From contig JAJZBR010000009.1 of the NCBI GenBank assembly GCA_021798795.1, positions 1 through 33,548 on the forward strand: a DNA stretch of 33,548 nucleotides, in the 5' to 3' direction. The notes under the pieces were generated by a model. That model searched no databases and was not told the DNA's origin. It was given only the letters and a program-made list of their open reading frames with translations. Position 1 is the first letter of the stretch. Every line of letters begins with the position of its first letter. This document shows, in pieces, positions 1 through 14,956 of the stretch. A program made the translations under genes and the position numbers. This DNA is from Pseudomonadota bacterium. Its GTDB lineage: Bacteria > Pseudomonadota > Gammaproteobacteria > JAKAQQ01.

Positions 1-4
1 AAAG

Positions 5-1957
5 TTGCCTGGCGAACGAGTGAATCGACCGGACTCCGTATTCGACGTCATCGTCGTCGGAGGTGGACATGCCGGAACGGAGGCGGCCCATGCGGCAGCC
101 CGCATGGGCTCGCGTACCCTGCTGCTCACCCAGAACATCGAAACGCTCGGTCAGATGAGTTGCAATCCCGCGATCGGCGGAATCGGGAAAGGACATCTGG
201 TCAAGGAGATCGATGCATTGGGCGGTGTTATGGGCGAGGCGGCGGATCAGGCCGGGATCCACTGGCGGACGCTCAACGCCAGCAAGGGATACGCCGTGCG
301 TGCGACGCGGGCCCAGTGCGATCGGAGCCTCTACCGGCAAGCCGTACGTAGCAGGCTCGAATCAACGCCCCATCTCTCCCTCTTCCAACAGCTCGCGGCT
401 GACCTCCTGGTTGAAGGCGACCGTGTGGTCGGAGTGGAGACCGAGATGGGGGTCAGGTTTTACGCCGGTGCTGTGATCCTTACGGTCGGGACCTTTCTGG
501 GCGGGCGGATTCATGTGGGCGCAGCCCAGACGGCGGGTGGGCGATTCGGTGATGCGCCCTCCAATCGACTTGCCGAGCGGCTTCGGGATCTCGATCTTCG
601 CGTCGGCCGGCTCAAAACCGGCACGCCACCCCGGATCGACGGCAGAAGTGTCGATTTCACACGTCTCGCAATCCAGGCGGGCGAGTCGCCTGTGCCCTAT
701 TTTTCATTTCACCCGAAAGCGCCAGTGGATCTGCGCCAGGTTGGTTGCTATCTCACCTATACCACCCCTGAGACACACGATTTGATTCGCCGGAATCTCG
801 ATCGCTCGCCACTTTTTACCGGCGTGATCGAAGGAGTGGGTCCACGCTATTGCCCCTCCATCGAGGACAAGGTCACCCGTTTCGCTGACCGAACCCGGCA
901 CCAGATTTTCCTCGAGCCGGAGGGGCTTGAAACCCACGAACTCTATCCCAATGGCATCTCGACCAGTCTGCCGTTCGATGTGCAGTGCGCGTTCGTACGG
1001 ACCATCCCGGGTCTCGAGCGGGCTCATCTCACCCGACCGGGTTATGCCATCGAATACGATTACTTCGATCCACGCGATCTCGATCATGCGCTCGAGACCC
1101 GGAGTATCCGGAATCTCTTTTTCGCAGGGCAGATCAACGGGACCACCGGGTACGAGGAGGCCGCTGCGCAGGGGCTCATCGCCGGCATCAACGCCGCCCG
1201 ACGGATCCAGGGGGAGACACCCTGGTTTCCCGGACGCGAGGAAGCTTATCTGGGTGTGCTTCTCGACGATCTCACGATTCGCGGAACCAAAGAGCCGTAT
1301 CGCATGTTCACGAGCCGAGCGGAGTACCGCCTGTTTCTGCGCGAGGACAATGCAGACGAACGCCTCACACCCCGCGGGCGTGAACTCGGATTGATCGATG
1401 ACGAGCGTTTTCGGTCCTTTGAGACGAAATACCGCGCGCTGTCCTCCGAACGGATGCGCCTCGAGGGCCTTGTGTTCGATCCGAAAGATCCGCTCGTTGG
1501 GGAGCGGGCGGAGCAGCTTGGCATGCGTCTTGAGGAACCCGTCCGCGCTGTGGAGCTCCTCCGCCGGCCCGAGATGAGCTACGAGCGCCTGATGACCTTC
1601 CCGGGAGCCGGTCCCGGCGCTGGCCGGATCGGTCTCGGGATCGAAATCAGGATCCGCTATGAAGGCTATCTCGAACGGCAGCAAATCGAGCATGCCCGTC
1701 TAGCGCGCGAGGGTGCGCGCGCATTCCCGGTGTGGTTCGACTATTCGCAGGTTCGGGGTCTGTCGCGCGAACTCGCCGAGAAGCTTCGCCTCGAGCGTCC
1801 CCCGACCCTGGATGCGGCTGCCACGATTCCGGGCATGACGCCAGCGGGCCTGTCCCTCCTTTTGGTCCATCTGCGTCGCCTTGCGGAGGGAGGGGTTCCT
1901 CCTGTGCCTCAGGATCGAGGGGAGTCACCAGTCGTTTTAAGACAGGATGCTAAGTGA
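5..1957 (+). CDS. mnmG: tRNA uridine-5-carboxymethylaminomethyl(34) synthesis enzyme MnmG (GidA)
   Basis: 650-aa ORF with FAD-binding motif [21 protein letters not shown], the [22 protein letters not shown] block and the [23 protein letters not shown] block typical of MnmG. The true start may lie slightly upstream or downstream because the window begins here. Confidence 0.97.
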
Positions 1958-2454
1958 TGGGGCGTCTGGATTCGGTCAGCATTCGATCCATCGAGGGTCC
2001 CCCTCTGTCTTTCGCTGACTATCGAGGTCAGGTTCTGCTCATCGTCAATGTCGCAAGCCATTGCGGTTACACCCCCCAGTACGCGGGACTTGAAGTGCTC
2101 TATCGCGAGTACCGGGATCGGGGTTTCACGCTCATCGGTGTGCCCTGTAACCAGTTTGGAAGTCAGGAACCGGGCACAGCGGACGAAATCGTGACATTTT
2201 GTCAGACCCGTTTTGGAGTCACTTTCCCGCTTACAGAAAAGATCGAGGTCAACGGACCCACTCGCCACCCGCTTTATCGGTGGCTCACCGATCCCACGCA
2301 GGGTCATCCCGGGGATATCCGGTGGAACTTCGAGAAATTCCTGATCGGGCGCTCGGGGAATCTCACCGCCCGGTGGGATTCCGATGTGAGTCCGGAGACG
2401 CTCGAGCCTGAGCTGGCCCGGCAGGTCGCGGCAGCGGCGGGAGGCGCGAAGTGA
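1954..2454 (+). CDS. Glutathione peroxidase-family (thiol-dependent) peroxidase
   Basis: 166 aa with [43 protein letters not shown] and the [10 protein letters not shown] block; active-site Cys rather than Sec. The GTG start overlaps the mnmG stop. Confidence 0.93.
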
Positions 2455-3422
2455 GCCTGGGGCATCCGGCCCGCCCCCTCGGTATCGACACTTGTGACGG
2501 CGGGATTTACGCAGTCGATTCGCAGTATGTGCGCCCGGGGCTCATGGCGAGCCATCTCCTGATCCGCTCGGGTGAGGCCGCTTTCGTCGATGTCGGTTCG
2601 AACGATTCCGTTGACCATCTGATGCGTGCACTCGATGCTTTGGGGGTCGGGGTGGCCTCGGTGCGGTTTCTGTTTCTGACCCACGTCCATCTGGATCATG
2701 CCGGTGGAGCCGGTCGGCTCGTTCGGGAGCTTCCGAACGTGCAAGTGCTGGTTCACCCGCGCGGTCTGCGGCACATGATCGACCCCGCAAAGCTCGAGGC
2801 CGGGACGCGCGAAGTGTACGGAGAAGAGCGCTTTGCCGCGCTTTTTGGCCAGATCATTCCGGTGCCCGAAAATCGGATCCGTAGCGTTGCGGACGGGGAA
2901 GTCATCCGTCTCGGAGGCTCCGAACTTGAAATCTGGCATACCGAGGGACATGCCCGCCACCACTTCTGTTTATGGGACCGTTCCACGCATTCAGTATTTG
3001 CCGGAGACAACTTCGGGATTGCCTATCGCGAGCTTGAAACCGGGCGCGGGCGGTTCATTTTCCCGACCACGACGCCCACCCAGTTCGACCCGGAACCGGC
3101 GCGGATGTCCATCGATCGCATCATGGGTTCCCGGCCACGCCGGATTTTCATCGCGCACTATAGCGCTCTCGAAACCTCACTCGGCGAGTTGGCGCAGACC
3201 CTCCAGACGGAGCTTGCTGCTTACGTATCGATCGGACAAAAGTTCGCTGATCGGCCAGACCGGCGCCACGCGATCCACGAGGCCCTTCGGGCCCACACCA
3301 GGGAACGCCTTGCGGAACACGGCGTAACGGATCCCGAGGTGGCACTGAATGATCTCCTCGCGTTTGATCTTGCGTTGAATGCGGCGGGAGTCGATCACTG
3401 GATGGCAAACACAAGCCGGTGA
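2451..3422 (+). CDS. MBL-fold metallo-hydrolase
   Basis: 323 aa with THVHLDHAGGAGRL (HxHxDH) metal motif, plus EGHARHHFCLWD and FAGDNFG. The GTG start overlaps the upstream stop. Confidence 0.92.
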   Translation: MSLGHPARPLGIDTCDGGIYAVDSQYVRPGLMASHLLIRSGEAAFVDVGSNDSVDHLMRALDALGVGVASVRFLFLTHVHLDHAGGAGRLVRELPNVQVLVHPRGLRHMIDPAKLEAGTREVYGEERFAALFGQIIPVPENRIRSVADGEVIRLGGSELEIWHTEGHARHHFCLWDRSTHSVFAGDNFGIAYRELETGRGRFIFPTTTPTQFDPEPARMSIDRIMGSRPRRIFIAHYSALETSLGELAQTLQTELAAYVSIGQKFADRPDRRHAIHEALRAHTRERLAEHGVTDPEVALNDLLAFDLALNAAGVDHWMANTSR

Positions 3423-4456
3423 GCGTGCCGACACGGTCGTTCCGGGCCCTGCGCCTGATCCAGACCGGATCTGGCGTCCGCATGGAACTCGAGGAGATCC
3501 ACTGGGACGATCTTGATCCGGGTCCGATCGGAATCCGTGTCCATTATTCGAGCGTGAACTACAAGGATGCGCTGGCCGCGACTGGAGCCGGCAAGATCCT
3601 GCGCCGGCCCACAGTCATCGGGGGGCTCGATCTTGCGGGCGAGGTGATCACTTCCGAGGATCCGGATTTCCCGTGCGGGTGCCGGGTTGTCGCGGTCGGG
3701 GGCGGGCTCGGGGAGGCCCGCGATGGCGGATTTTCAGAATACGCCCGACTTCCTGCGGATCTCCTGGTTCGCCTGGATCCGGGTCTCACGACCTACGCCG
3801 CCATGCAGATCGGCACTGCCGGTTTCACCGCGCTTTTGGCCCAAAGGCGGCTTGAGGCGTTCGGGCTCCGGCCCGGAGACGGGCCGGTTGTTGTGAGTGG
3901 AGCGACCGGTGGAGTGGGCAGTTTCGCGGTCAACCTCATGCGGGAGGCGGGCTATGCGGTTTCGGCCTTGACCCAAAAAAGAGGCTGCGAGGAGTATCTC
4001 CGCGCGATCGGGGCAGTAGACATCATCGGCCCGGAAGCATGGGAAGCTGGCGAACCAGCGCTGCTTCCGGCGCGCTGGGGAGCGGGCATCGACAACGTCG
4101 GCGGTCACGCTCTTTCCTGGATGATTCGCTCGGCGCGGCGCGGCGCAGCGATCGCAGCGGTGGGGATGGCCTCATCCGCCGACCTCCGGTTGACGGTCTT
4201 CCCTTTCATCCTCCGTGGGGTGAGTCTCATCGGCATCAACTCGACTGAGGTCGAAACCGGGGCGAGGCGGGCACTTTGGCATGATCTCGCGCACGCCTCG
4301 AGACCCCGGGCCCTCGACCGGATTGCACCGCAGCACATTTCCCTCGCCGCACTCCCAACGTCGTTCGGGGACTGGATCCAAAATCGGATCGTCGGTCGCG
4401 TGGTGGTCGCGATCGGGGAAGAGCCGTCAGGGGGATCCGGTGTAAAATCAGGGTAG
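3419..4456 (+). CDS. YhdH/AcuI-family MDR oxidoreductase (acrylyl-CoA reductase-like)
   Basis: 345 aa with SSVNYKDALAATGAGKI, GGLDLAGEV, AMQIGTAGFTALL, VVVSGATGGVGSFAVNLM and LIGINSTEV, characteristic of the YhdH/AcuI subfamily. Confidence 0.88.
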   Translation: MSVPTRSFRALRLIQTGSGVRMELEEIHWDDLDPGPIGIRVHYSSVNYKDALAATGAGKILRRPTVIGGLDLAGEVITSEDPDFPCGCRVVAVGGGLGEARDGGFSEYARLPADLLVRLDPGLTTYAAMQIGTAGFTALLAQRRLEAFGLRPGDGPVVVSGATGGVGSFAVNLMREAGYAVSALTQKRGCEEYLRAIGAVDIIGPEAWEAGEPALLPARWGAGIDNVGGHALSWMIRSARRGAAIAAVGMASSADLRLTVFPFILRGVSLIGINSTEVETGARRALWHDLAHASRPRALDRIAPQHISLAALPTSFGDWIQNRIVGRVVVAIGEEPSGGSGVKSG

Positions 4457-4476
4457 ATTCCAACCGGAGAAGTCGG

Positions 4477-5373
4477 GTGAGCCCGGGATGGCGACTGAAA
4501 GCTGCCTTGGCTGCGGAGTGCCCGCTGCAGATCGTGGGCACCATCAATGCCTATTGCGCGCTTTTGGCTCGTGAAGCGGGTTTTCGGGCACTCTATCTTT
4601 CCGGTGCGGGAGTTTCCAATGCTGCATTCGGGCTCCCGGATCTCGCTCTCACGACCATGACGGATGTGGTGGAGGAAGCCCGGCGGATCACCCAGGCTAC
4701 GGATTCGCCGCTTCTGGTCGATGGCGATACCGGTTTCGGCGGAGCGTTCAACATCGGCCGGTGCGTGCGCGAGTTGATTCGGTCAGGAGTCGCAGGCTTA
4801 CATCTTGAAGACCAGGTTGCGGCGAAGCGATGCGGGCACCGCCCGGGTAAAAAGCTCGTCACGGTCGGCGAGATGCAGGATCGGGTCAAGGCGGCGGTGG
4901 ATGCGCGCACGGACCCTGATTTCATGATCATGGCGCGAACCGACGCCTTTGCGTCCGAGGGTTTGACCGGGATGATCGAACGCGCGTCGGCTTACGTCGA
5001 AGCGGGAGCCGATGCCATTTTCGCCGAAGCGCTGCCCGCGCTCACGGATTATAGAGCGCTTACGGGTGTGATGCAGGTGCCGGTCCTGGCCAATGCGACC
5101 GAGTTTGGGCGGACGCCGCTCTTCGAGCTAGAGGAGTTTCGTTCCGCGGGGATCCGGATGGTGCTCTATCCGCTGACCGCCTTTCGCGCCATGAGCCAGG
5201 CCGCAGTGGAAACCTATGAAACTTTGCGTGCGCAAGGCAGTCAGAAAACCCTGATCGGGCGGCTCCAGACGCGCGAAGCGCTCTATGCGGTCCTCAGCTA
5301 CTTGGATTATGAGCGCAAACTCGACGAACTGTACGGCCCCTCACATATGACGAATCCAGAGGAGATGAACTGA
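4477..5373 (+). CDS. prpB: Methylisocitrate lyase
   Basis: 298 aa with YLSGAGVSNAAFGLPDLALTTM, LLVDGDTGFGGAFNIGRCVREL, HLEDQVAAKRCGHRPGKKLV and MIMARTDAFASEGL, as in PrpB. GTG start. Confidence 0.94.
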   Translation: MSPGWRLKAALAAECPLQIVGTINAYCALLAREAGFRALYLSGAGVSNAAFGLPDLALTTMTDVVEEARRITQATDSPLLVDGDTGFGGAFNIGRCVRELIRSGVAGLHLEDQVAAKRCGHRPGKKLVTVGEMQDRVKAAVDARTDPDFMIMARTDAFASEGLTGMIERASAYVEAGADAIFAEALPALTDYRALTGVMQVPVLANATEFGRTPLFELEEFRSAGIRMVLYPLTAFRAMSQAAVETYETLRAQGSQKTLIGRLQTREALYAVLSYLDYERKLDELYGPSHMTNPEEMN

Positions 5374-6494
5374 TGTCTGAGACCTCCAAAGCAGGTGGTT
5401 TGGCTGGTGTGACCGCCGGGCAGACCGCGATATCAACCGTAGGCAAGGAAGGCGTGGGATTGACCTACCGCGGATACTCGATCGAGGATCTGGCCCAAGA
5501 CGCGACGTTCGAGGAGGTGGCGTACCTGCTCTTGAACGGTGAGCCTCCCAAGGCCACCGAGCGCGATGCTTTTATCCGATCGCTCGGCGCCGCGCGCGCG
5601 CTTCCCGAACCCATGCGGGAGCTGCTCGAAAAGCTGCCCGCCACAGCGCACCCCATGGATGTCCTGAGAACCGGCTGTTCTTATCTCGGCTGCCTCGAAC
5701 CGGAGCGGGATTTCTCGGCGGGGCTTGGTGCATCAATCCGCCTTTTGGCGGCGTTCCCATCGATTTTGCTCTACTGGTACCACTATCATCAGAACGGGCG
5801 CCGGATCGACACTCGTCAGGGGGGCAGGTCGATCGCTTCTCATTTCCTCACGCTTCTTCATGGGCGCGAGCCGGAGCCGCTCGACTGCCGGGCGCTCGAT
5901 GTCTCCCTGATCCTCTATGCCGAACATGAATTCAACGCTTCGACCTTCGCCGCGCGGGTTTGTGCCGGCACGCTGTCCGATTACCATTCCTGCATCACCT
6001 CTGCGATTGGAACCCTGCGTGGTCCACTCCATGGCGGAGCGAACGAAGCCGCCATGGAGATGATCAGCCGCTATGAGACCCCAGAGGCGGCACGCACCGG
6101 AACGCTTGCTGCTCTCGCCCGCAAGGAAAAGATCATGGGCTTCGGGCACCGGGTCTACCGGGATCACGACCCCCGCAACACGATCATCAAGGATTGGGCG
6201 CAAAGACTCGGCGCGGCGCGAGGGGATCGCCGCTACTACCCGGTTTCAGAGGCGATCGAGCAGGTCCTTTGGGAGGAGAAAAAACTCTTCCCGAACCTCG
6301 ATTTTTACAGCGCGAGCGCGTATCACTTCCTGGGGATCCCACCCACCCTGTTCACGCCCGTCTTCGTCTGCTCCAGGGTGAGTGGCTGGTCTGCGCATGT
6401 ATTCGAGCAACGTGCGAACAACCGTTTGATCCGGCCCGATGCCGAATATATCGGTCCCGCGCCGCGTCCCTGGGCCGTACGGGCCGGACGATGA
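5373..6494 (+). CDS. prpC: 2-methylcitrate synthase (citrate synthase family)
   Basis: 373 aa with GLTYRGYSIEDLAQDATFEEVAYLLLNGE, LYAEHEFNASTFAARVCAGTLSD, GPLHGGANEAAMEMI and GFGHRVYRDHDPRN. Adjacent to prpB and prpD. Confidence 0.94.
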   Translation: MSETSKAGGLAGVTAGQTAISTVGKEGVGLTYRGYSIEDLAQDATFEEVAYLLLNGEPPKATERDAFIRSLGAARALPEPMRELLEKLPATAHPMDVLRTGCSYLGCLEPERDFSAGLGASIRLLAAFPSILLYWYHYHQNGRRIDTRQGGRSIASHFLTLLHGREPEPLDCRALDVSLILYAEHEFNASTFAARVCAGTLSDYHSCITSAIGTLRGPLHGGANEAAMEMISRYETPEAARTGTLAALARKEKIMGFGHRVYRDHDPRNTIIKDWAQRLGAARGDRRYYPVSEAIEQVLWEEKKLFPNLDFYSASAYHFLGIPPTLFTPVFVCSRVSGWSAHVFEQRANNRLIRPDAEYIGPAPRPWAVRAGR

Positions 6495-7975
6495 CACCCG
6501 GGATACGGGCGTCGGAAGATCGCCTCCCGGATCCGTGGGCATCGGAGGGTCTGGATCCGTCTCCCGATCGGGTCTGCAGCGCGATCGTCGATTATGTCTT
6601 TGCGGATGAAAAGGCGAACGCTTCGGCCTATGAGACGGCCTGGCTCAGTCTCATGGATTCGATCGGCGTGGCGCTCCGGGCCCTCGCCTACCCTGCCTGC
6701 ACGCGATTGCTCGGTCCCTGGATACCGGGCGGGGGCGTGACTTTGGGCGCACGCGTTTTGGGTACCCGCTTCGAACTCGATCCCATCAAGGCCGCATTCG
6801 ATACCGGCGCACTCATCCGCTGGCTCGATTACAACGACACCTGGCTCGCGGCCGAGTGGGCTCATCCCTCGGACAATCTCGGCGCATTGCTCGCAGTCGC
6901 GGACTACCACAATCGCGCCCTGTCGCTTGAGGGAGCCCATCCCGTGACCATCGGGCGGCTTCTCGAGGCCATGATCCACGCCTACGAGATTCAGGGAATC
7001 CTGGCGCTCACCAACTCCCTGAATGCGGTTGGGATCGATCACGTGGTCTATGTGCGTGTCGCATCAGCGGCCCTCGCCGCGCGCCTTTTCGGGGCTTCCC
7101 GCAAACAGGTTCTGAGTGCGGTGACGGGTGCGTTCGCAGATGGCGGGAGTCTCCGGGTATACCGGCATTTTCCGAATACCGGTTCACGCAAATCCTGGGC
7201 CGCAGCGGATGCCACGGCCCGCGGGGTTCAGCTCGCGCTCATGAGCCTTAAAGGTGAAATGGGTTATCCCCAGGTGCTGACCACACCACGCTGGGGTTTT
7301 AATGATGTGGTGCTCAAGGGAGAAGCGCTCGCGCTTGCGCGTCCACTCCGCTCCTACGTCATGGAAAACATTCTCTTCAAAGTGAACTATCCGGCAGAGT
7401 TTCATGGCCAGACTGCGGCGGAGGCCGCCGTCGTCCTTCATCCGGAAATCCGGGAGCGGATCGATCAAATCGAACGCATCGATATCGAGACCCAGCGCCC
7501 CGCTCTCCGCATCATCGACAAGAGCGGTCCCTTGAGAAACCCGGCTGATCGTGATCATTGTCTTCAATACATCGTGGCCAGCGCACTTTTGCGCGGCCGG
7601 CTTGTGGCTGAAGATTACGAGGATGTGAACGCCTCCGATCCTGCGATTGATACGCTCCGCTCCAAGATGCAGGTCACCGAGAATGCGGAGTTTACCCGCC
7701 ACTACTATGATTCCGAGAAACGTTTCATCGGCAATGCAATCATGATCCGTTTCCGGGATGGATCAACGAGCAGACGGGTCGCAGTCGAGGTACCGGTTGG
7801 TCACCGCCAGCGGCGCGCGGAAGCCCGGCCGCTCCTTTGGGAAAAGTTCAAGCAGAGTCTCAGTGCTCTCCCTTCGGGTCGTGCGCAGGCATTGACCGCA
7901 TTTTTTGAACCGTCGTGGCAGGAGCAAGCCGAGCGGAGTGTCTCGGAACTCATCGACCTGCTCATCCCCGTATAG
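6491..7975 (+). CDS. prpD: 2-methylcitrate dehydratase, MmgE/PrpD family
   Basis: In-frame ATG at 6491 (ATGA overlap with the prpC stop) gives about 494 aa. Contains FDTGALIRWLDYNDTWLAAEWAHPSDNLGALLAVADY and KVNYPAEFHGQTAAEAAV. The provided ORF extends upstream to 6194 only because of an open frame inside prpC. Confidence 0.92.
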   Translation: MTPGIRASEDRLPDPWASEGLDPSPDRVCSAIVDYVFADEKANASAYETAWLSLMDSIGVALRALAYPACTRLLGPWIPGGGVTLGARVLGTRFELDPIKAAFDTGALIRWLDYNDTWLAAEWAHPSDNLGALLAVADYHNRALSLEGAHPVTIGRLLEAMIHAYEIQGILALTNSLNAVGIDHVVYVRVASAALAARLFGASRKQVLSAVTGAFADGGSLRVYRHFPNTGSRKSWAAADATARGVQLALMSLKGEMGYPQVLTTPRWGFNDVVLKGEALALARPLRSYVMENILFKVNYPAEFHGQTAAEAAVVLHPEIRERIDQIERIDIETQRPALRIIDKSGPLRNPADRDHCLQYIVASALLRGRLVAEDYEDVNASDPAIDTLRSKMQVTENAEFTRHYYDSEKRFIGNAIMIRFRDGSTSRRVAVEVPVGHRQRRAEARPLLWEKFKQSLSALPSGRAQALTAFFEPSWQEQAERSVSELIDLLIPV

Positions 7976-8029
7976 CGGGTCCCCCCGGCCATTGGGCATC
8001 CTGATGGCGACAGTGCGAGAATCCAAGGG

Positions 8030-9199
8030 ATGAGCGCCCCACCCGCCCGGCTTCCTCCCGAAATGGCACGTTCCCTGGATCGGCTCGAGGGCGGAGCCAT
8101 CACATGGGATCCACTCCTGCTCGAGTTCCTGCGCGCGCGTTGCATCGAAGACCCGCGCGGGGAGACAGGATTCAGGCACCGGGGACACCCATACCGGTGC
8201 GTGACGCAGCCTGAGCAGATCCATGAACTCCTTCACCCCCAAACCGACGTGCTCACCCCCGGATTGCTGGATCCGAGCAAGGCCTGGACTCCCAATCGGT
8301 TGCAGTCCATGGGATCTCGACCCGCCGAAGGGGTCTGTGTTGGGGACGTGGCGGTTTTGCGGAAACGCTGCGAGGCGTATCTCGCAAACTGGCGAGCGGG
8401 GAGTATCCGATCACTTACCAAGGAGATCCGCGTGTTCGCAAGCCTCCTCCTCGAGACTCACGGATTCCTGCCACCCGAGGAAGATCCGGATCGGAGCTGG
8501 CTTTCTGGATGGCTCGATCTCGCGCACCAATCGGCATTTCAGCCAACCGCGCTGACCCGCCGGGAAAAAACGGCGCGCGCGCGCGCGCGGGGCCATCTGC
8601 TTGCGAGAAGGAAGGGCATCGCCCCGTCCCCAACGGATGCCCCGATCCCTCCCGCCGATTCCTCCCTGCTCTGGCATGCAGGTCCCGCTCTGGAACTGGC
8701 CATTCTGTCCCCGCTTTGGGTGATCGTGAATCGAGCCCTGTTCGATGGGGAGGAGTTCAAGCGTCCGCCCCGGGATTGGATTCGCCCCCTCATCGTGGCC
8801 TCCTGGCGGCTCCTGCCGCCATTCTGGTTGCGGAGCCGTGAAACGCGATATGAGTTCCGGCTCGGAACGGAACGGATTCCGGCTGGGATGCGGTTTCTGT
8901 TCGGCCCGGGTTTGCTCGATGAGAGCATGAGCTTCAGGAATTTCCGTTCCCTGTTCAGTTCGCCCCTTCCCGGCCGTCCAGCAATCGAGCCGGAGTGGCT
9001 TTTCGGCTCGGGTTCCAACGCATGCCCGTTCGGAGCGTTTGCCCTCGAGAGGATCGGCATCCTGCTCGAGGAGATTCTCACGGCGTTTAGGCCTGTGCTC
9101 GTCCCGGGTGGGGAGGGCTGGATGGACTGGGAGACAGATTTGCCTGAGGCAGAGGTCAAACTTCTGCCGTTTCATCTGTGTCCGGCACCCGTTGGTTGA
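8030..9199 (+). CDS. Cytochrome P450-like protein with non-canonical motifs
   Basis: 389 aa. C-terminal layout matches P450: IVASWRLLPPFWLRSRETRYEFRLGTERIPAGMRFLFGPGLL (K-helix/beta region) and FGSGSNACPFGAFALERIGILLEEIL (Cys-loop and L-helix). Key consensus residues are substituted; see findings. Confidence 0.72.
   Translation: MSAPPARLPPEMARSLDRLEGGAITWDPLLLEFLRARCIEDPRGETGFRHRGHPYRCVTQPEQIHELLHPQTDVLTPGLLDPSKAWTPNRLQSMGSRPAEGVCVGDVAVLRKRCEAYLANWRAGSIRSLTKEIRVFASLLLETHGFLPPEEDPDRSWLSGWLDLAHQSAFQPTALTRREKTARARARGHLLARRKGIAPSPTDAPIPPADSSLLWHAGPALELAILSPLWVIVNRALFDGEEFKRPPRDWIRPLIVASWRLLPPFWLRSRETRYEFRLGTERIPAGMRFLFGPGLLDESMSFRNFRSLFSSPLPGRPAIEPEWLFGSGSNACPFGAFALERIGILLEEILTAFRPVLVPGGEGWMDWETDLPEAEVKLLPFHLCPAPVG
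8565..8589. repeat. A6 homopolymer followed by a (GC)8.5 dinucleotide tract
   Basis: gggAAAAAAcgGCGCGCGCGCGCGCGCGggg inside the P450-like ORF; the GC tract is 8573-8589 and encodes part of KTARARARG. Confidence 0.95.
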
Positions 9200-9364
9200 C
9201 CCCGCAATCGTCGTCCATCCCCCCCCGGCCTTCCGGATACGGATTCCAGTACAATGAGTCGCAAGCGCGTGAGCAGGCTGCGCCAACCGGGTCACCCCGG
9301 CATGCACCGGCCAGGACCCTTAAGGACTGCTCGCGATCCATCCATGATGCCGAGGAAAGTATCT

Positions 9365-9820
9365 ATGAAAACCCATACCGTTGCTGCAATCGCGGGGGCC
9401 CTTGCAATTTCGTTCGGAGCATCTGTTCCAAGCTTCGCGAAACCGGTTGCGAATCCCTACTTCGACCCGGGGCTCTGGCGCCTCCACGTCGTGACCTACG
9501 GAGCCTCGCATGCAATCATGAAACGACTGTCGAAAACGATGTGTCTCACGCATCAGCCACGAGCCATGAAACCGCATGGAAAGATGGCTTCTCTTTGCCG
9601 CGTGACGAACCACCAGATGGTGGGCAATACCCTGACCTGGACCACCGCATGCCATTCGGCGAGCTTGGATATGATTAGCCAGGGGCGGGCGGTGTACCGG
9701 AAAACCACTCTCGATGAGTGGGTAAACGGGCACGTGCTGGCACCCGAGAAAATGGCCTACCGCGTTCACGTGATCGGGAAGCGGATTGGAAGTTGCCCGG
9801 CTGCAAAATCCGGTTACTGA
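9365..9820 (+). CDS. Small secreted protein, DUF3617-like
   Basis: From the in-frame ATG at 9365: signal-peptide-like MKTHTVAAIAGALAISFGASVPSFA, then PGLWRLHV...MCLT...LCRVTNHQMVGNTLTWTTACHS...GKRIGSC. The GLW start, spaced Cys residues and terminal GxRxGxC resemble DUF3617. The provided ORF begins at 9254. Confidence 0.6.
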   Translation: MKTHTVAAIAGALAISFGASVPSFAKPVANPYFDPGLWRLHVVTYGASHAIMKRLSKTMCLTHQPRAMKPHGKMASLCRVTNHQMVGNTLTWTTACHSASLDMISQGRAVYRKTTLDEWVNGHVLAPEKMAYRVHVIGKRIGSCPAAKSGY

Positions 9821-9981
9821 GCGCTCACCTGCGGAGGCCTGTCAGCAGGCATCCAAGGAGAGGATCACGGTTGTGAACACGCCCGTCGAATCCGCCGTGC
9901 GCGCGTACGGGGCTCATCCGGCTTTGCAGGCGTAGCCCCGGCGTGACCGATCCCGTCCACGGTGCGGGAAGGGCTGGGACA

Positions 9982-11727
9982 ATGAACGATGGGGCGAGAG
10001 CCCGGAACCGGCTTTCTCCCCTGCTGGGCAGGGCGGTCTTTTTTGCAGTTGCCAGCTTCCTCGTGACCGTGTCGAGCGCTGTCCAGGCCCACCCGGTGGC
10101 GCGCAGTCAGGGCACCGGAGGATGCCTAGCCGGTCTCCCGAATGGATTGGATCCCACCGCAGGACGTTTCTACGACGCCCACCTCTGGCGCTGGTTGGAA
10201 ACCGAACGGTATCGGTTCGGGCGGATTCATGTTCGAGTGGTCAATGTTTTCGACCGCACCCGGCCCGGGCAGGACACCTGGTATGCGCGCACTGCGGATT
10301 TCATCCACGCCAAAACCCGGCTCTACGTGATCCGGGATGCCTTGCTCTTCAAAAGCGGTGAGCGGGTTGTGGCACGGACCATCTACGAGACCTCGCGCAA
10401 CCTCCGTGCACTTCCGTTCGTGCGTGCGGTTCGGATCGTGCCCGAAGACTGCCACCACCGTGTGGTCTCGGTGAACGTGATCGAAAAAGATGCCTGGACC
10501 CTCAAGTTTGACTATCGGTTCAGCCATGTCGGCGGGGCCAGCGAAATCCGTTACAAAGCGCTCGACACCGACCTGCTCGGGACGGGCAAGACACTCTCCG
10601 TGAGTTGGCAAAAAACCCTCCAGCGGACCGAGACCGACTACGCCTATGAGGATCCCGAGATCTTCGGGAGCCGCTGGAGTGGTCTCGTGAGCGATGGAAC
10701 CTTGTCGGACGGTTATCAACGCCTCTTGACCGTGGCGCGTCCGTTTTACCGGGATACCGATCCCTGGTCAGTGACGTTCACAGGGCTTTCCCAGAAAGAG
10801 AATCTGGATCTCTACGAGGATGGCGTGCTGGTCGAATCCGTCCCCAATCAGTTGAACTCCGCGAGTGCGACCTTTGGTCACCTGATCGCTTTTGCGAAGG
10901 ACACGGGTGAACGCTTCTACCTCGGTTGGAGCCGGAGTTCGGAAACGTATGAGGCACCGATCCGGGAGGATGCGGTTCCGCTTTTGCCGTTGGACCTCCT
11001 CTCGCGGCGAGCGGTGGGACCGACGGTGGGTTGGCAGCTCTTTCAGGACCGGTACAGGAGTTTCGAGAACATCCAGCTGATCGACCGCGTCGAGGATTAC
11101 GATCTCGGCTGGAACGTGATGGGGACAGTGGGTTATGACCCGAGCTGGCTCGGAAGCCTCGGGGATTCCCTTTCGTTTAATCTCGACGTGAGTGATGGAT
11201 CCCGCCTCTTCGGTCACGATTTGTTGCTGGCGACGGGCGCCTGGAAAGCGCGTCGGCAATCCGGCCAGTGGCAGAACGAGTCGGGTCAACTCGGAGCCAC
11301 TTATTACAATCAAGATCTGCCGGATGAAACCTGGGTACTCCATGCGAGTTATGCGTTCACGGTCCATCCCTATCCCCTGAGTCTGCTTTATATCGGAGGG
11401 ATCCAGGGGTTGCGGGGCTACCCCAACTATTTCAGGCTGGGAACCCGGATGTGGACCGCGACGCTCGAGGATCGCATCGTGACGCCGGTCACGCTGTTTC
11501 ACAGTTTTGTTCTGGGGTTCGTGACCTATGCCGACTGGGCCCAGATTCAGGAACTCACGCCCGTACACTGGAGCCGGATCTATCAGGATGTGGGAGGTGG
11601 ACTCAGAATCGGCAATCTCCGGAGTGCCTATGGTCAGGTTTATTACCTGACCTTCGCCGTCCCGCTGGTTCACGCACCCGGCGTGTCAGCCGAGCAGTTC
11701 ATCGTGGGCGATATCGTGCACTTCTGA
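9982..11727 (+). CDS. BamA/TamA (Omp85)-like outer membrane beta-barrel protein with a POTRA-like segment
   Basis: N-terminal hydrophobic signal, POTRA-like KTRLYVIRDALLFKSGERVVARTIYETSRNLRALPFVRAVRIVPEDC, beta-barrel-like alternation, GIQGLRGYPNYFRLG (GxRGY-type motif) and C-terminal Phe (VGDIVHF). ATG 9982 preferred over GTG 9943. Confidence 0.75.
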   Translation: MNDGARARNRLSPLLGRAVFFAVASFLVTVSSAVQAHPVARSQGTGGCLAGLPNGLDPTAGRFYDAHLWRWLETERYRFGRIHVRVVNVFDRTRPGQDTWYARTADFIHAKTRLYVIRDALLFKSGERVVARTIYETSRNLRALPFVRAVRIVPEDCHHRVVSVNVIEKDAWTLKFDYRFSHVGGASEIRYKALDTDLLGTGKTLSVSWQKTLQRTETDYAYEDPEIFGSRWSGLVSDGTLSDGYQRLLTVARPFYRDTDPWSVTFTGLSQKENLDLYEDGVLVESVPNQLNSASATFGHLIAFAKDTGERFYLGWSRSSETYEAPIREDAVPLLPLDLLSRRAVGPTVGWQLFQDRYRSFENIQLIDRVEDYDLGWNVMGTVGYDPSWLGSLGDSLSFNLDVSDGSRLFGHDLLLATGAWKARRQSGQWQNESGQLGATYYNQDLPDETWVLHASYAFTVHPYPLSLLYIGGIQGLRGYPNYFRLGTRMWTATLEDRIVTPVTLFHSFVLGFVTYADWAQIQELTPVHWSRIYQDVGGGLRIGNLRSAYGQVYYLTFAVPLVHAPGVSAEQFIVGDIVHF

Positions 11728-11731
11728 CGGT

Positions 11732-11737
11732 TATAAT
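11732..11737 (+). promoter_or_regulatory. Candidate -10 box (TATAAT) upstream of ppsA
   Basis: Perfect TATAAT just after the stop of the Omp85-like gene. No good -35 was found at 16-18 bp. Confidence 0.4.
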
Positions 11738-11849
11738 GAGAGCCATCAACACGCGACGCATCCCGCAGGGTTCGTCAAGGTAGGAGCCCCCCTCAACGGG
11801 TCGGCTGGCTGTCGCGAAATCCGCATCATCCAAGGCTGTGGAGGGTTGC

Positions 11850-14273
11850 GTGGGCACGAACTATATCCGTTTCTTCAGTGAAATCAGGATGTCAGATCTC
11901 CCGACTGTGGGCGGTAAGAACGCCTCTTTGGGCGAGATGTACCAGGCACTTTTACCACAGGGCGTACGGGTTCCGAATGGTTTTGCGATTACGGCCGATG
12001 CCTATCGCCACGTGCTCGATGAAGCCCATGCCTGGGAGGCGCTCACCAGCGCCCTTTGTGCACTGCGGCCAGATGATGTGAGGGATCTGGCCTCATGTGC
12101 CTCGCGGGCCCGGCAGATTGTCTACGATGCGGGGATTCCAGACGACTTGAAGGGAGAAATCATTGATGCGTACACCAAACTTCGCGAGGAATACGGGCCG
12201 TCCCTCACGGTAGCGGTGCGATCCTCGGCGACGGCTGAGGATCTGCCGACGGCAAGTTTCGCAGGTCAGCAGGAGAGCTACCTCAACGTATCAGGAGAAG
12301 AGGCGCTCATCGACTCCTGCCGGCACTGCTTCGCGAGTCTGTTTACGGATCGGGCGATTCACTATCGCTCCGAACACGGATTCGATCATCTCAAGGTCGG
12401 CCTTTCGATCGGTGTCATGAAAATGGTCCGGTCGGATCTCGCATCGAGTGGCGTCATGTTTTCCCTGGATACCGAGTCCGGATTCCGCGAGGTGGTTTTC
12501 ATCACAGGTACCTGGGGACTCGGGGAAACGCTCGTCCAGGGGCTCGTTGACCCCGATGAGTTTTACGTCTTCAAGCCGACCTTCCGCACCGGGCATCGCG
12601 CCGTGCTCCGTCGGCGCCTGGGCAGCAAGGCGATCAAGATGGTTTACGCCACAAACGATCTCGGATCCGGTGGGACCCGAAGTGTGGAGACCACGGTATC
12701 GGAACGCAAGCAGTTCTGTCTCACGGACGAGGACGTGCTGACGCTCGCAGACTATGCGCTCGCGATCGAGACCCACTACAGCCGCGAAGCGGGTCAGGCG
12801 CGACCCATGGACATGGAGTGGGCGAAAGACGGAGTGGACGGGGTGCTCTACATGGTCCAAGCCCGGCCCGAAACGGTCGTATCCCGGAAAACGGGCCAGG
12901 TGGTCGAACAATACCAGCTTGAAAAACGAGGATCGCTCCTCGTCACCGGACGCGCGGTCGGTACCCGGATCGCGACCGGGAAGGTCCGGATCGTAAAGGA
13001 TATCGCGGCGCTCGGGAGTTTCCAGCCGGGGGACGTGCTCGTGGCCGAGACGACCAGCCCGGATTGGGAACCGGTGATGAAACAGGCTGCGGCCATCGTG
13101 ACCGATCGGGGCGGGCGTACCTGCCATGCTGCGATCATCTCGCGTGAGCTCGGGATTCCAGCCGTGGTGGGAACGGGGCAGGCGACCCGGATGGTGAAAA
13201 ATGCCGAAACGGTTACCGTCTCCTGTGCCGAGGGAGATACTGGCAGCGTCTATGCTGGTGCACTTCCCTACACCGTGCACCGGACGGACTATGCAACACT
13301 CCCGCGTCCGGTCACGAAGATCCTGCTCAATCTCGGCAATCCCGCGCTCGCCTTCCAGACCAGCCAGTTGCCCAATGATGGCGTGGGTCTCGCGCGTATG
13401 GAGTTCATCGTTACCAGTGCGATCCGAATCCACCCGCTTGCGCTTCTCCATCCCGAAAAAATCAGCGACGAGAACGAACGGCGCGCCATTGCCGAGATCG
13501 TGGCAGGCTACGAGCGGCCGGCGGATTTCTTCATCGAGCGTCTATCCGAGGGAGTGGGAACCATTGCCGCGGCGTTTTACCCGAAGCCCGTAGTCGTTCG
13601 CATGTCGGATTTCAAGTCGAACGAATACGCTTCGCTTTTAGGTGGGCACGCATTCGAGCCTGTGGAAGCCAATCCGATGCTCGGCTTCCGGGGCGCCTCG
13701 CGCTATGATCATCCAGCCTACCGCGAAGGCTTCGCGCTTGAGTGCGCTGCGATCCGGCGGGTGCGGGAAGGAATGGGTCTCACGAATCTCATTCCGATGA
13801 TTCCATTTGTCCGCCGCGTGGAGGAAGCAGACCGGGTTCTTGCCCGGATGGCTGAACTCGGACTTTCCCGAGGCGAAGGCGGGCTCGAGATTTACGCGAT
13901 GTGCGAGATCCCGAACAATGTGATCCTGATCGATGATTTTGCGAAGCGTTTCGACGGCTTTTCGATCGGTGGGAACGATCTGACTCAGCTCACACTCGGG
14001 GTCGACCGTGATTCCGAGATCGTGGCGTTCGATTTTGATGAGCGCGATGCCGGTGTGAAGGAGATGATCCGGCAGGCGGTATTGGGTTGCCGACGCAATG
14101 GCATCCATTCCGGTTTTTGCGGGCAGGCGCCTTCCGATTTTCCTGAAATGGCAGAGTTTCTGGTTGAGCTCGGGATTCACTCGATGAGTCTCAACCCCGA
14201 CACGATTCTCGCGACGACCCTCCACGTCCTCGCGGTCGAGGAGCGGCTCGGGCGCAAGCCGCCCGCGAAATGA
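11850..14273 (+). CDS. ppsA: Phosphoenolpyruvate synthase
   Basis: About 807 aa from GTG 11850 (GGAGGG at 11840-11845 upstream; the provided ORF starts at 11838). Contains VGGKNASLGEMY, DRGGRTCHAAIISRELGIPAVVG (phospho-His domain) and GGNDLTQLTLGVDRDS with SGFCGQAPSD. Confidence 0.96.
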   Translation: MGTNYIRFFSEIRMSDLPTVGGKNASLGEMYQALLPQGVRVPNGFAITADAYRHVLDEAHAWEALTSALCALRPDDVRDLASCASRARQIVYDAGIPDDLKGEIIDAYTKLREEYGPSLTVAVRSSATAEDLPTASFAGQQESYLNVSGEEALIDSCRHCFASLFTDRAIHYRSEHGFDHLKVGLSIGVMKMVRSDLASSGVMFSLDTESGFREVVFITGTWGLGETLVQGLVDPDEFYVFKPTFRTGHRAVLRRRLGSKAIKMVYATNDLGSGGTRSVETTVSERKQFCLTDEDVLTLADYALAIETHYSREAGQARPMDMEWAKDGVDGVLYMVQARPETVVSRKTGQVVEQYQLEKRGSLLVTGRAVGTRIATGKVRIVKDIAALGSFQPGDVLVAETTSPDWEPVMKQAAAIVTDRGGRTCHAAIISRELGIPAVVGTGQATRMVKNAETVTVSCAEGDTGSVYAGALPYTVHRTDYATLPRPVTKILLNLGNPALAFQTSQLPNDGVGLARMEFIVTSAIRIHPLALLHPEKISDENERRAIAEIVAGYERPADFFIERLSEGVGTIAAAFYPKPVVVRMSDFKSNEYASLLGGHAFEPVEANPMLGFRGASRYDHPAYREGFALECAAIRRVREGMGLTNLIPMIPFVRRVEEADRVLARMAELGLSRGEGGLEIYAMCEIPNNVILIDDFAKRFDGFSIGGNDLTQLTLGVDRDSEIVAFDFDERDAGVKEMIRQAVLGCRRNGIHSGFCGQAPSDFPEMAEFLVELGIHSMSLNPDTILATTLHVLAVEERLGRKPPAK

Positions 14274-14956
14274 GCGAGCGCCAGTCGCCGCTCGACACTC
14301 CCACGCTCGTCACGTTCTCCGATGAGAGGGTGGAACCCGCAATCCGCCCGGCGCTTCAACGGTTCGTCGAACTTCTCGTGGAATGGAATCGGGTCTACAA
14401 CTTGGTCGGGCCGGGTGCATCGCCTGCGATCTGGACCCATCATGTTCTGGACAGCCTCTCGGTCACGAGCCTCATTGAGGGCGCCCGTGTGGCCGATATT
14501 GGATCAGGAGCCGGGTTTCCCGGCCTCGTGCTCGCGATTGCCTTCCCCGCCCGTTCGTTCGTGCTCTTCGATGCGAATGGCAAAAAGGCCCGTTTTCTCG
14601 CTCATGCGAAGCGCCAACTGGGGCTCGACAATATCGAGATCGTGAACGCCCGTGTCGAAGAAACGCGCGCCTCGAGCCGTCCGAGTTTCGGAACACTGAT
14701 CACCCGGGCGCTCGGGACGATCGCCTATTTTCTGGAAGTCTCTTCACCCCTTGCGGGTCCCGGTACGCAGTGGCTTGCGATGAAGGGCAGGATTCCGCGT
14801 GAAGAAATCGAATCGCTTCCGAGGGGATACAGGCTGGAGAAGCTCTGGCGCATCAGGATCGCGGAAGTTCTGGCCGAGCGCCATGTGGTCGACTTGCGTC
14901 TGACGGATGCCGCGCATCAGGAACCGGTCTCTCAGCGCACGTCACCGTACGGATAA
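14270..14956 (+). CDS. rsmG: 16S rRNA (guanine(527)-N(7))-methyltransferase RsmG
   Basis: 228 aa with WNRVYNLVG, HHVLDSLSV, VADIGSGAGFPGLVLAIAFP and ITRALGT. ATGA overlap with the ppsA stop. Confidence 0.95.
   Translation: MSERQSPLDTPTLVTFSDERVEPAIRPALQRFVELLVEWNRVYNLVGPGASPAIWTHHVLDSLSVTSLIEGARVADIGSGAGFPGLVLAIAFPARSFVLFDANGKKARFLAHAKRQLGLDNIEIVNARVEETRASSRPSFGTLITRALGTIAYFLEVSSPLAGPGTQWLAMKGRIPREEIESLPRGYRLEKLWRIRIAEVLAERHVVDLRLTDAAHQEPVSQRTSPYG

Follow-up and report, generated by a model that had tools for sequence, protein, structure and literature searches.

A probable P450-derived pseudoenzyme encoded behind prpD in a family of Gammaproteobacteria

The stretch of DNA analyzed here (the window, 33,548 nucleotides) carries, directly behind a set of methylcitrate genes for the breakdown of propionate, an ORF that begins with ATG and codes for 389 amino acids. 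From the sequence alone, its product had been predicted to follow the P450 layout while having lost most of the canonical catalytic signatures. Such a protein raises the question of what it is kept for: an atypical heme enzyme, a gene in slow decay, or a P450 fold put to another use. We examined its ancestry, its orthologs, the fate of its heme motifs and the selection acting on it.

P450 ancestry and motifs of the window protein

Sequence and profile comparison give good support for descent from a P450. A search with P450 HMMs, suggested as a check along with the original prediction, gave a divided answer: the window protein matched the NCBIfam models for the ApyO P450 (2e-5) and CYP170A1 (1.5e-4), whereas Pfam PF00067 matched none of the seven family members (the window copy and the six orthologs described below), nor did Pfam assign them to a family of any kind. 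In the PDB, phmmer returned CYP170A1 (4e-5), and the family profile matched CYP175A1 (3e-5) and CYP170A1 (4e-5). When the family was compared with 19 canonical P450s drawn from the same class as the window organism, HHalign gave a probability of 96.8 across aa 250-361. The family profile scored 36.6 bits against canonical P450s, and none of 20 column-shuffled controls exceeded 6.8 bits. Significant homology is confined to aa ~250-361, about 110 C-terminal residues running from the K-helix to the heme loop, and by these residues the protein belongs to the superfamily by descent. A profile of aa 1-245 alone had no significant P450 match, and the P450 layout originally proposed for the protein is established only for its last third. 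The closest solved structures by sequence are CYP170A1 and the Thermus protein CYP175A1, the latter of the same length as the window protein (389 aa), but both are canonical P450s with their motifs intact.

It is very improbable that the protein has a different fold, in which a K-helix-like segment arose by chance or convergence. The short extent of the match and the silence of PF00067 are compatible with such an origin, as is a poor AlphaFold2 model (pLDDT 37.7, pTM 0.30) built from two sequences only, those of the window and L010. The several independent sequence and profile matches, the retained spacing of the heme loop and the low scores of the shuffled controls argue against it.

Alignment to canonical P450s firmly placed the K-helix and the heme loop (Table 1). 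The K-helix lies within IVASWRLLPPFW (aa 255-266), and its firm placement bears out the predicted reading of ExxR as ASWR, with Glu replaced by Ala. The degenerate heme loop FGSGSNACPFG is also as described, and its Cys332 sits in exact FxxGxxxC register. The spacer that leads from the K-helix/beta region to the heme loop is shortened, and the PERF motif is not recognizable. Placement of the I-helix is less secure. The segment proposed for its oxygen-activation site, HAGPALELA, is present, and the AG of its AGPA aligns to the AG of AGHETT in the alignment made by MAFFT as well as in that to CYP175A1, with the acid and Thr gone; the significant profile match, however, begins at or beyond this segment, and the assignment is only of moderate strength. 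The original prediction had named two grounds for doubt, a proper ExxR or AGxxTT elsewhere in the ORF and the lack of any P450 match; no such motif was found elsewhere in the ORF, and the match is present. CYP152 peroxygenases and CYP74 share the loss of the I-helix acid/Thr pair, but both the heme Cys and ExxR are retained in them, and we saw no sequence link between them and the window family.

Table 1. Features of the prp locus and of the P450-like gene in the window
Feature	Position	Strand	Remarks
prpB, methylisocitrate lyase	4477..5373	+	
prpC, 2-methylcitrate synthase	5373..6494	+	
prpD, 2-methylcitrate dehydratase	6554..7975	+	True start approximate; directly upstream in 7/7 genomes with the protein
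Probable P450-derived pseudoenzyme gene	8030..9199	+	~54 nt after prpD; basis: orthologs, NCBIfam and PDB profile matches, dN/dS
HAGPALELA (aa 216-224), probable I-helix oxygen-activation remnant	8675..8701	+	AG kept; acid and Thr lost; placement moderate
ASWR (aa 257-260), K-helix ExxR position	8798..8809	+	Alignment to canonical P450s and orthologs
PPFWLRSRETRYEFRLGTERIP (aa 263-284), segment with the highest conservation in the family	8816..8881	+	Ortholog alignment; dN/dS of aa 241-300
FGSGSNACPFG (aa 325-335), heme-ligand loop	9002..9034	+	Cys332 kept in the window protein
DUF3617 protein	9254..9820	+	Conserved downstream neighbor; hydrophobic N-terminal stretch suggests export
BamA/TamA (Omp85-like) protein	9943..11727	+	Conserved next neighbor

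Orthologs and the prp locus

Whole-genome searches identified six orthologs of the window protein, distributed over three genera of the same family. The set thus numbers seven with the window copy (G000), the relatives being draft assemblies of varying completeness. The protein tree matches the three genera, which shows vertical inheritance. Beyond the family, 369 genomes of the class and 399 of the phylum yielded ordinary P450s only, those inspected having both ExxR and the heme Cys, and a plasmid search gave no match. A PF00067 search of all nine family genomes detected no other P450; three sub-threshold matches of 72 bases (E ~0.2) were judged not to be real. Ferrochelatase is present in seven of these nine genomes, indicating that heme is made. 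The gene is missing from G005 and G008. Joint loss with prpD was considered for these two and rejected, since neither genome has the prp-type prpC or the rsmG that belongs to this region. Because the surrounding region is gone as well, this absence is not evidence; it is more simply explained by a contig missing from an incomplete MAG.

The gene order in the window is mnmG, gpx, MBL-fold, acuI-like, prpB, prpC, prpD, P450-like gene, DUF3617, Omp85-like, ppsA, rsmG, parA, parB, atp. The order prpC-prpD-P450-like gene is found in 7/7 genomes, and the DUF3617 and Omp85-like genes follow in all six whose contigs extend that far. The P450-like gene lies 54 nt behind prpD in the window genus and 8 nt behind it in genus g2, spacings consistent with co-transcription; a promoter scan found nothing. 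As predicted, no ferredoxin or reductase gene was present among the window genes scanned.

Several other features of the region were noted. The prp operon and its followers sit between mnmG and rsmG (window positions 1-14956), genes that commonly adjoin in many bacteria (mnmG-rsmG-parA-parB-atp). In all members whose contigs extend far enough, the prp genes are accompanied by an outer-membrane pair consisting of the DUF3617 protein, which has a probable signal peptide, and the BamA/TamA (Omp85-like) protein. G001 alone has about 2.5 kb of extra DNA between the P450-like and DUF3617 genes (L037 about 420-2890). In G006 the rsmG match (C12:66740-67333) contains one in-frame TGA, reflecting a frameshift, a sequencing error or a real loss.

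Mosaic loss of heme motifs under purifying selection

The family members differ in which parts of the heme machinery they have lost. ExxR is gone in G000, G001, G002, G003 and G007 and is kept only in G004 (ECWR) and G006 (ESWR); it was lost in the window's genus and retained in a sister genus. The K-helix reads ASWR in the window, CSWQ in G002 and TAWH in G001. The heme loop can be read in six members, the G007 contig ending before it. Three of the six (G000, G002, G003) have the heme Cys, which is replaced by Leu in G001, Ser in G004 and Glu in G006, and no full-length ortholog possesses both ExxR and the Cys. No member has the Arg/His before the Cys, the Gly after it or the PERF motif; the AG of the I-helix is retained in most, the Thr in none. 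The complete signatures of a functional heme-thiolate P450, FxxGx[RH]xCxG and ExxR with the PERF Arg, are absent from the family. What it does retain is PPxWxxRxTxxxxRLGxxRxP, with P263, P264, W266, R270, T272, R277, L278, G279, R282 and P284 invariant in all seven. Of the His and Tyr residues that might replace the lost heme ligand, only His382 is conserved, near the C-terminus and kept in 6/6 members reaching it. On the tree, the simplest history would start from an ancestor that had ExxR as well as the Cys, each of which was then lost separately at least two times.

A broken K-helix ExxR also occurs in CYP157 of Streptomyces, which keeps the E and loses the R (EVLW, EQSLW) (PMC3599690); its Cys is kept as the one absolute residue, according to the title of a reference cited there (B30). 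In contrast, the window protein loses the E, G001 and G002 lose the R too, and three orthologs lose the Cys. The CYP157 combination of a K-helix ExxW with Cys present is therefore not that of the window family.

Despite these losses, none of the seven ORFs contains an internal stop. The original prediction had proposed a search for orthologs with low dN/dS. For the four closest pairs (dS 0.9-1.3, or about 1), Nei-Gojobori dN/dS values are 0.33, 0.34, 0.27 and 0.22, with bootstrap 95% upper bounds of at most 0.44 (window versus G002, 0.33; 95% 0.24-0.42). Constraint is strong in aa 241-300 (dN/dS 0.08-0.24) and weak in aa 81-160 in two genera (0.59-0.87). For the window-G002 pair, the neighboring prpB, prpC and prpD give 0.09-0.12 and the DUF3617 gene 0.30. 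The P450-like gene is under selection, yet less tightly than the adjacent enzymes; its constraint is moderate.

These values bear on the proposal, already foreseen as an objection to the original prediction, that the gene is simply decaying. A relaxed ex-P450 that persists only through its operon location would be in keeping with a dN/dS some threefold that of prpB/C/D and with the weak constraint in aa 81-160. However, the open frames in three genera, the upper bound on whole-gene dN/dS and the constraint on aa 241-300 already largely refute slow decay, and we consider it quite unlikely.

A role other than heme-thiolate chemistry

Because three orthologs are under purifying selection without the heme Cys, heme-thiolate function is not the conserved one; judged from the aligned sequences, a function common to all orthologs cannot need a thiolate ligand. 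The window gene is probably a P450-derived pseudoenzyme, kept for binding rather than for heme-thiolate chemistry. Two of the readings offered originally, a pseudo-P450 and an unusual new family, are supported. The others, a heme sensor or a peroxide- or rearrangement-type enzyme, are disfavored as the conserved function by the three Cys-less orthologs but may apply to the window copy with its Cys332. Heme binding by this copy and by G002 is possible, FxxGxxxC being intact and the organism making heme.

That the Cys-keeping lineages, such as the window's genus and G003, have a heme protein that is active if atypical (peroxygenase, isomerase or heme sensor), with activity lost elsewhere, is nevertheless unlikely. 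The exact register of Cys332 in G000, G002 and G003 and the supply of heme in the cell would suit it, as would the alignment of invariant R270 with the conserved Arg following the K-helix, a position that we take to be often a heme-propionate contact in P450s. On the other hand, it is these very lineages that have lost ExxR, the I-helix Thr and the Arg/His before the Cys are lost, PERF is not recognizable, and G001, a close relative and sister of G002, has Leu in place of the Cys while its dN/dS is still low.

For a pseudoenzyme, we suggest the following history. A P450 with ExxR and heme cysteine would have settled behind prpD in the ancestor of the family; the need for heme-thiolate chemistry would then have been lost, and the protein retained for binding something else. 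It would be folded, devoid of P450 oxygen chemistry, and act as scaffold, chaperone or allosteric partner. Since prpD immediately precedes the gene in what looks like a single operon, PrpD is the leading candidate partner; a second possibility is some other product encoded at the locus. The pairing with PrpD is guessed from gene order, and it is position and analogy that suggest both partner and mechanism. A more specific proposal, that the P450 fold became a non-catalytic subunit or chaperone of PrpD independently of the macrolide EryCII-type helpers, through intermediates that each lost different heme parts, is conceivable but doubtful.

The analogy is with EryCII, a heme-less P450 homologue that stabilizes and allosterically activates a glycosyltransferase. 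EryCII has no C helix and only part of G/H, whereas I-L and the beta-sheets are retained; its C-terminal half was preserved as parts of the heme and substrate region were lost (PMC3391682). Like the heme-less glycosyltransferase activators EryCII, DesVIII, DnrQ and AknT, the window family is P450-derived, adjoins candidate partner genes, is best kept in its C-terminal half and, in part, lacks the heme Cys. Unlike them, it resides in a proteobacterial prp (methylcitrate) locus, and some of its members keep the Cys. EryCII is not among the PDB matches at E<=10, whereas CYP175A1 and CYP170A1 are, and no glycosyltransferase or deoxysugar genes were found among the window neighbors. An EryCII-like mode of action is plausible by analogy; membership in the EryCII family is not supported, given the lack of a sequence match and of a glycosyltransferase.

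Little has been written about P450 pseudoenzymes. In the literature searched, the only bacterial set consists of the glycosyltransferase helpers encoded in antibiotic clusters, and no prp-linked P450 pseudoenzyme was found. The window family would be a second, separate bacterial case, outside secondary metabolism, in host genomes where no further P450 was detected. Since sister genera differ in what they retain (only ExxR of the two motifs, only the Cys, or neither), the family makes the order of heme loss testable in a P450 with a retained structural role.
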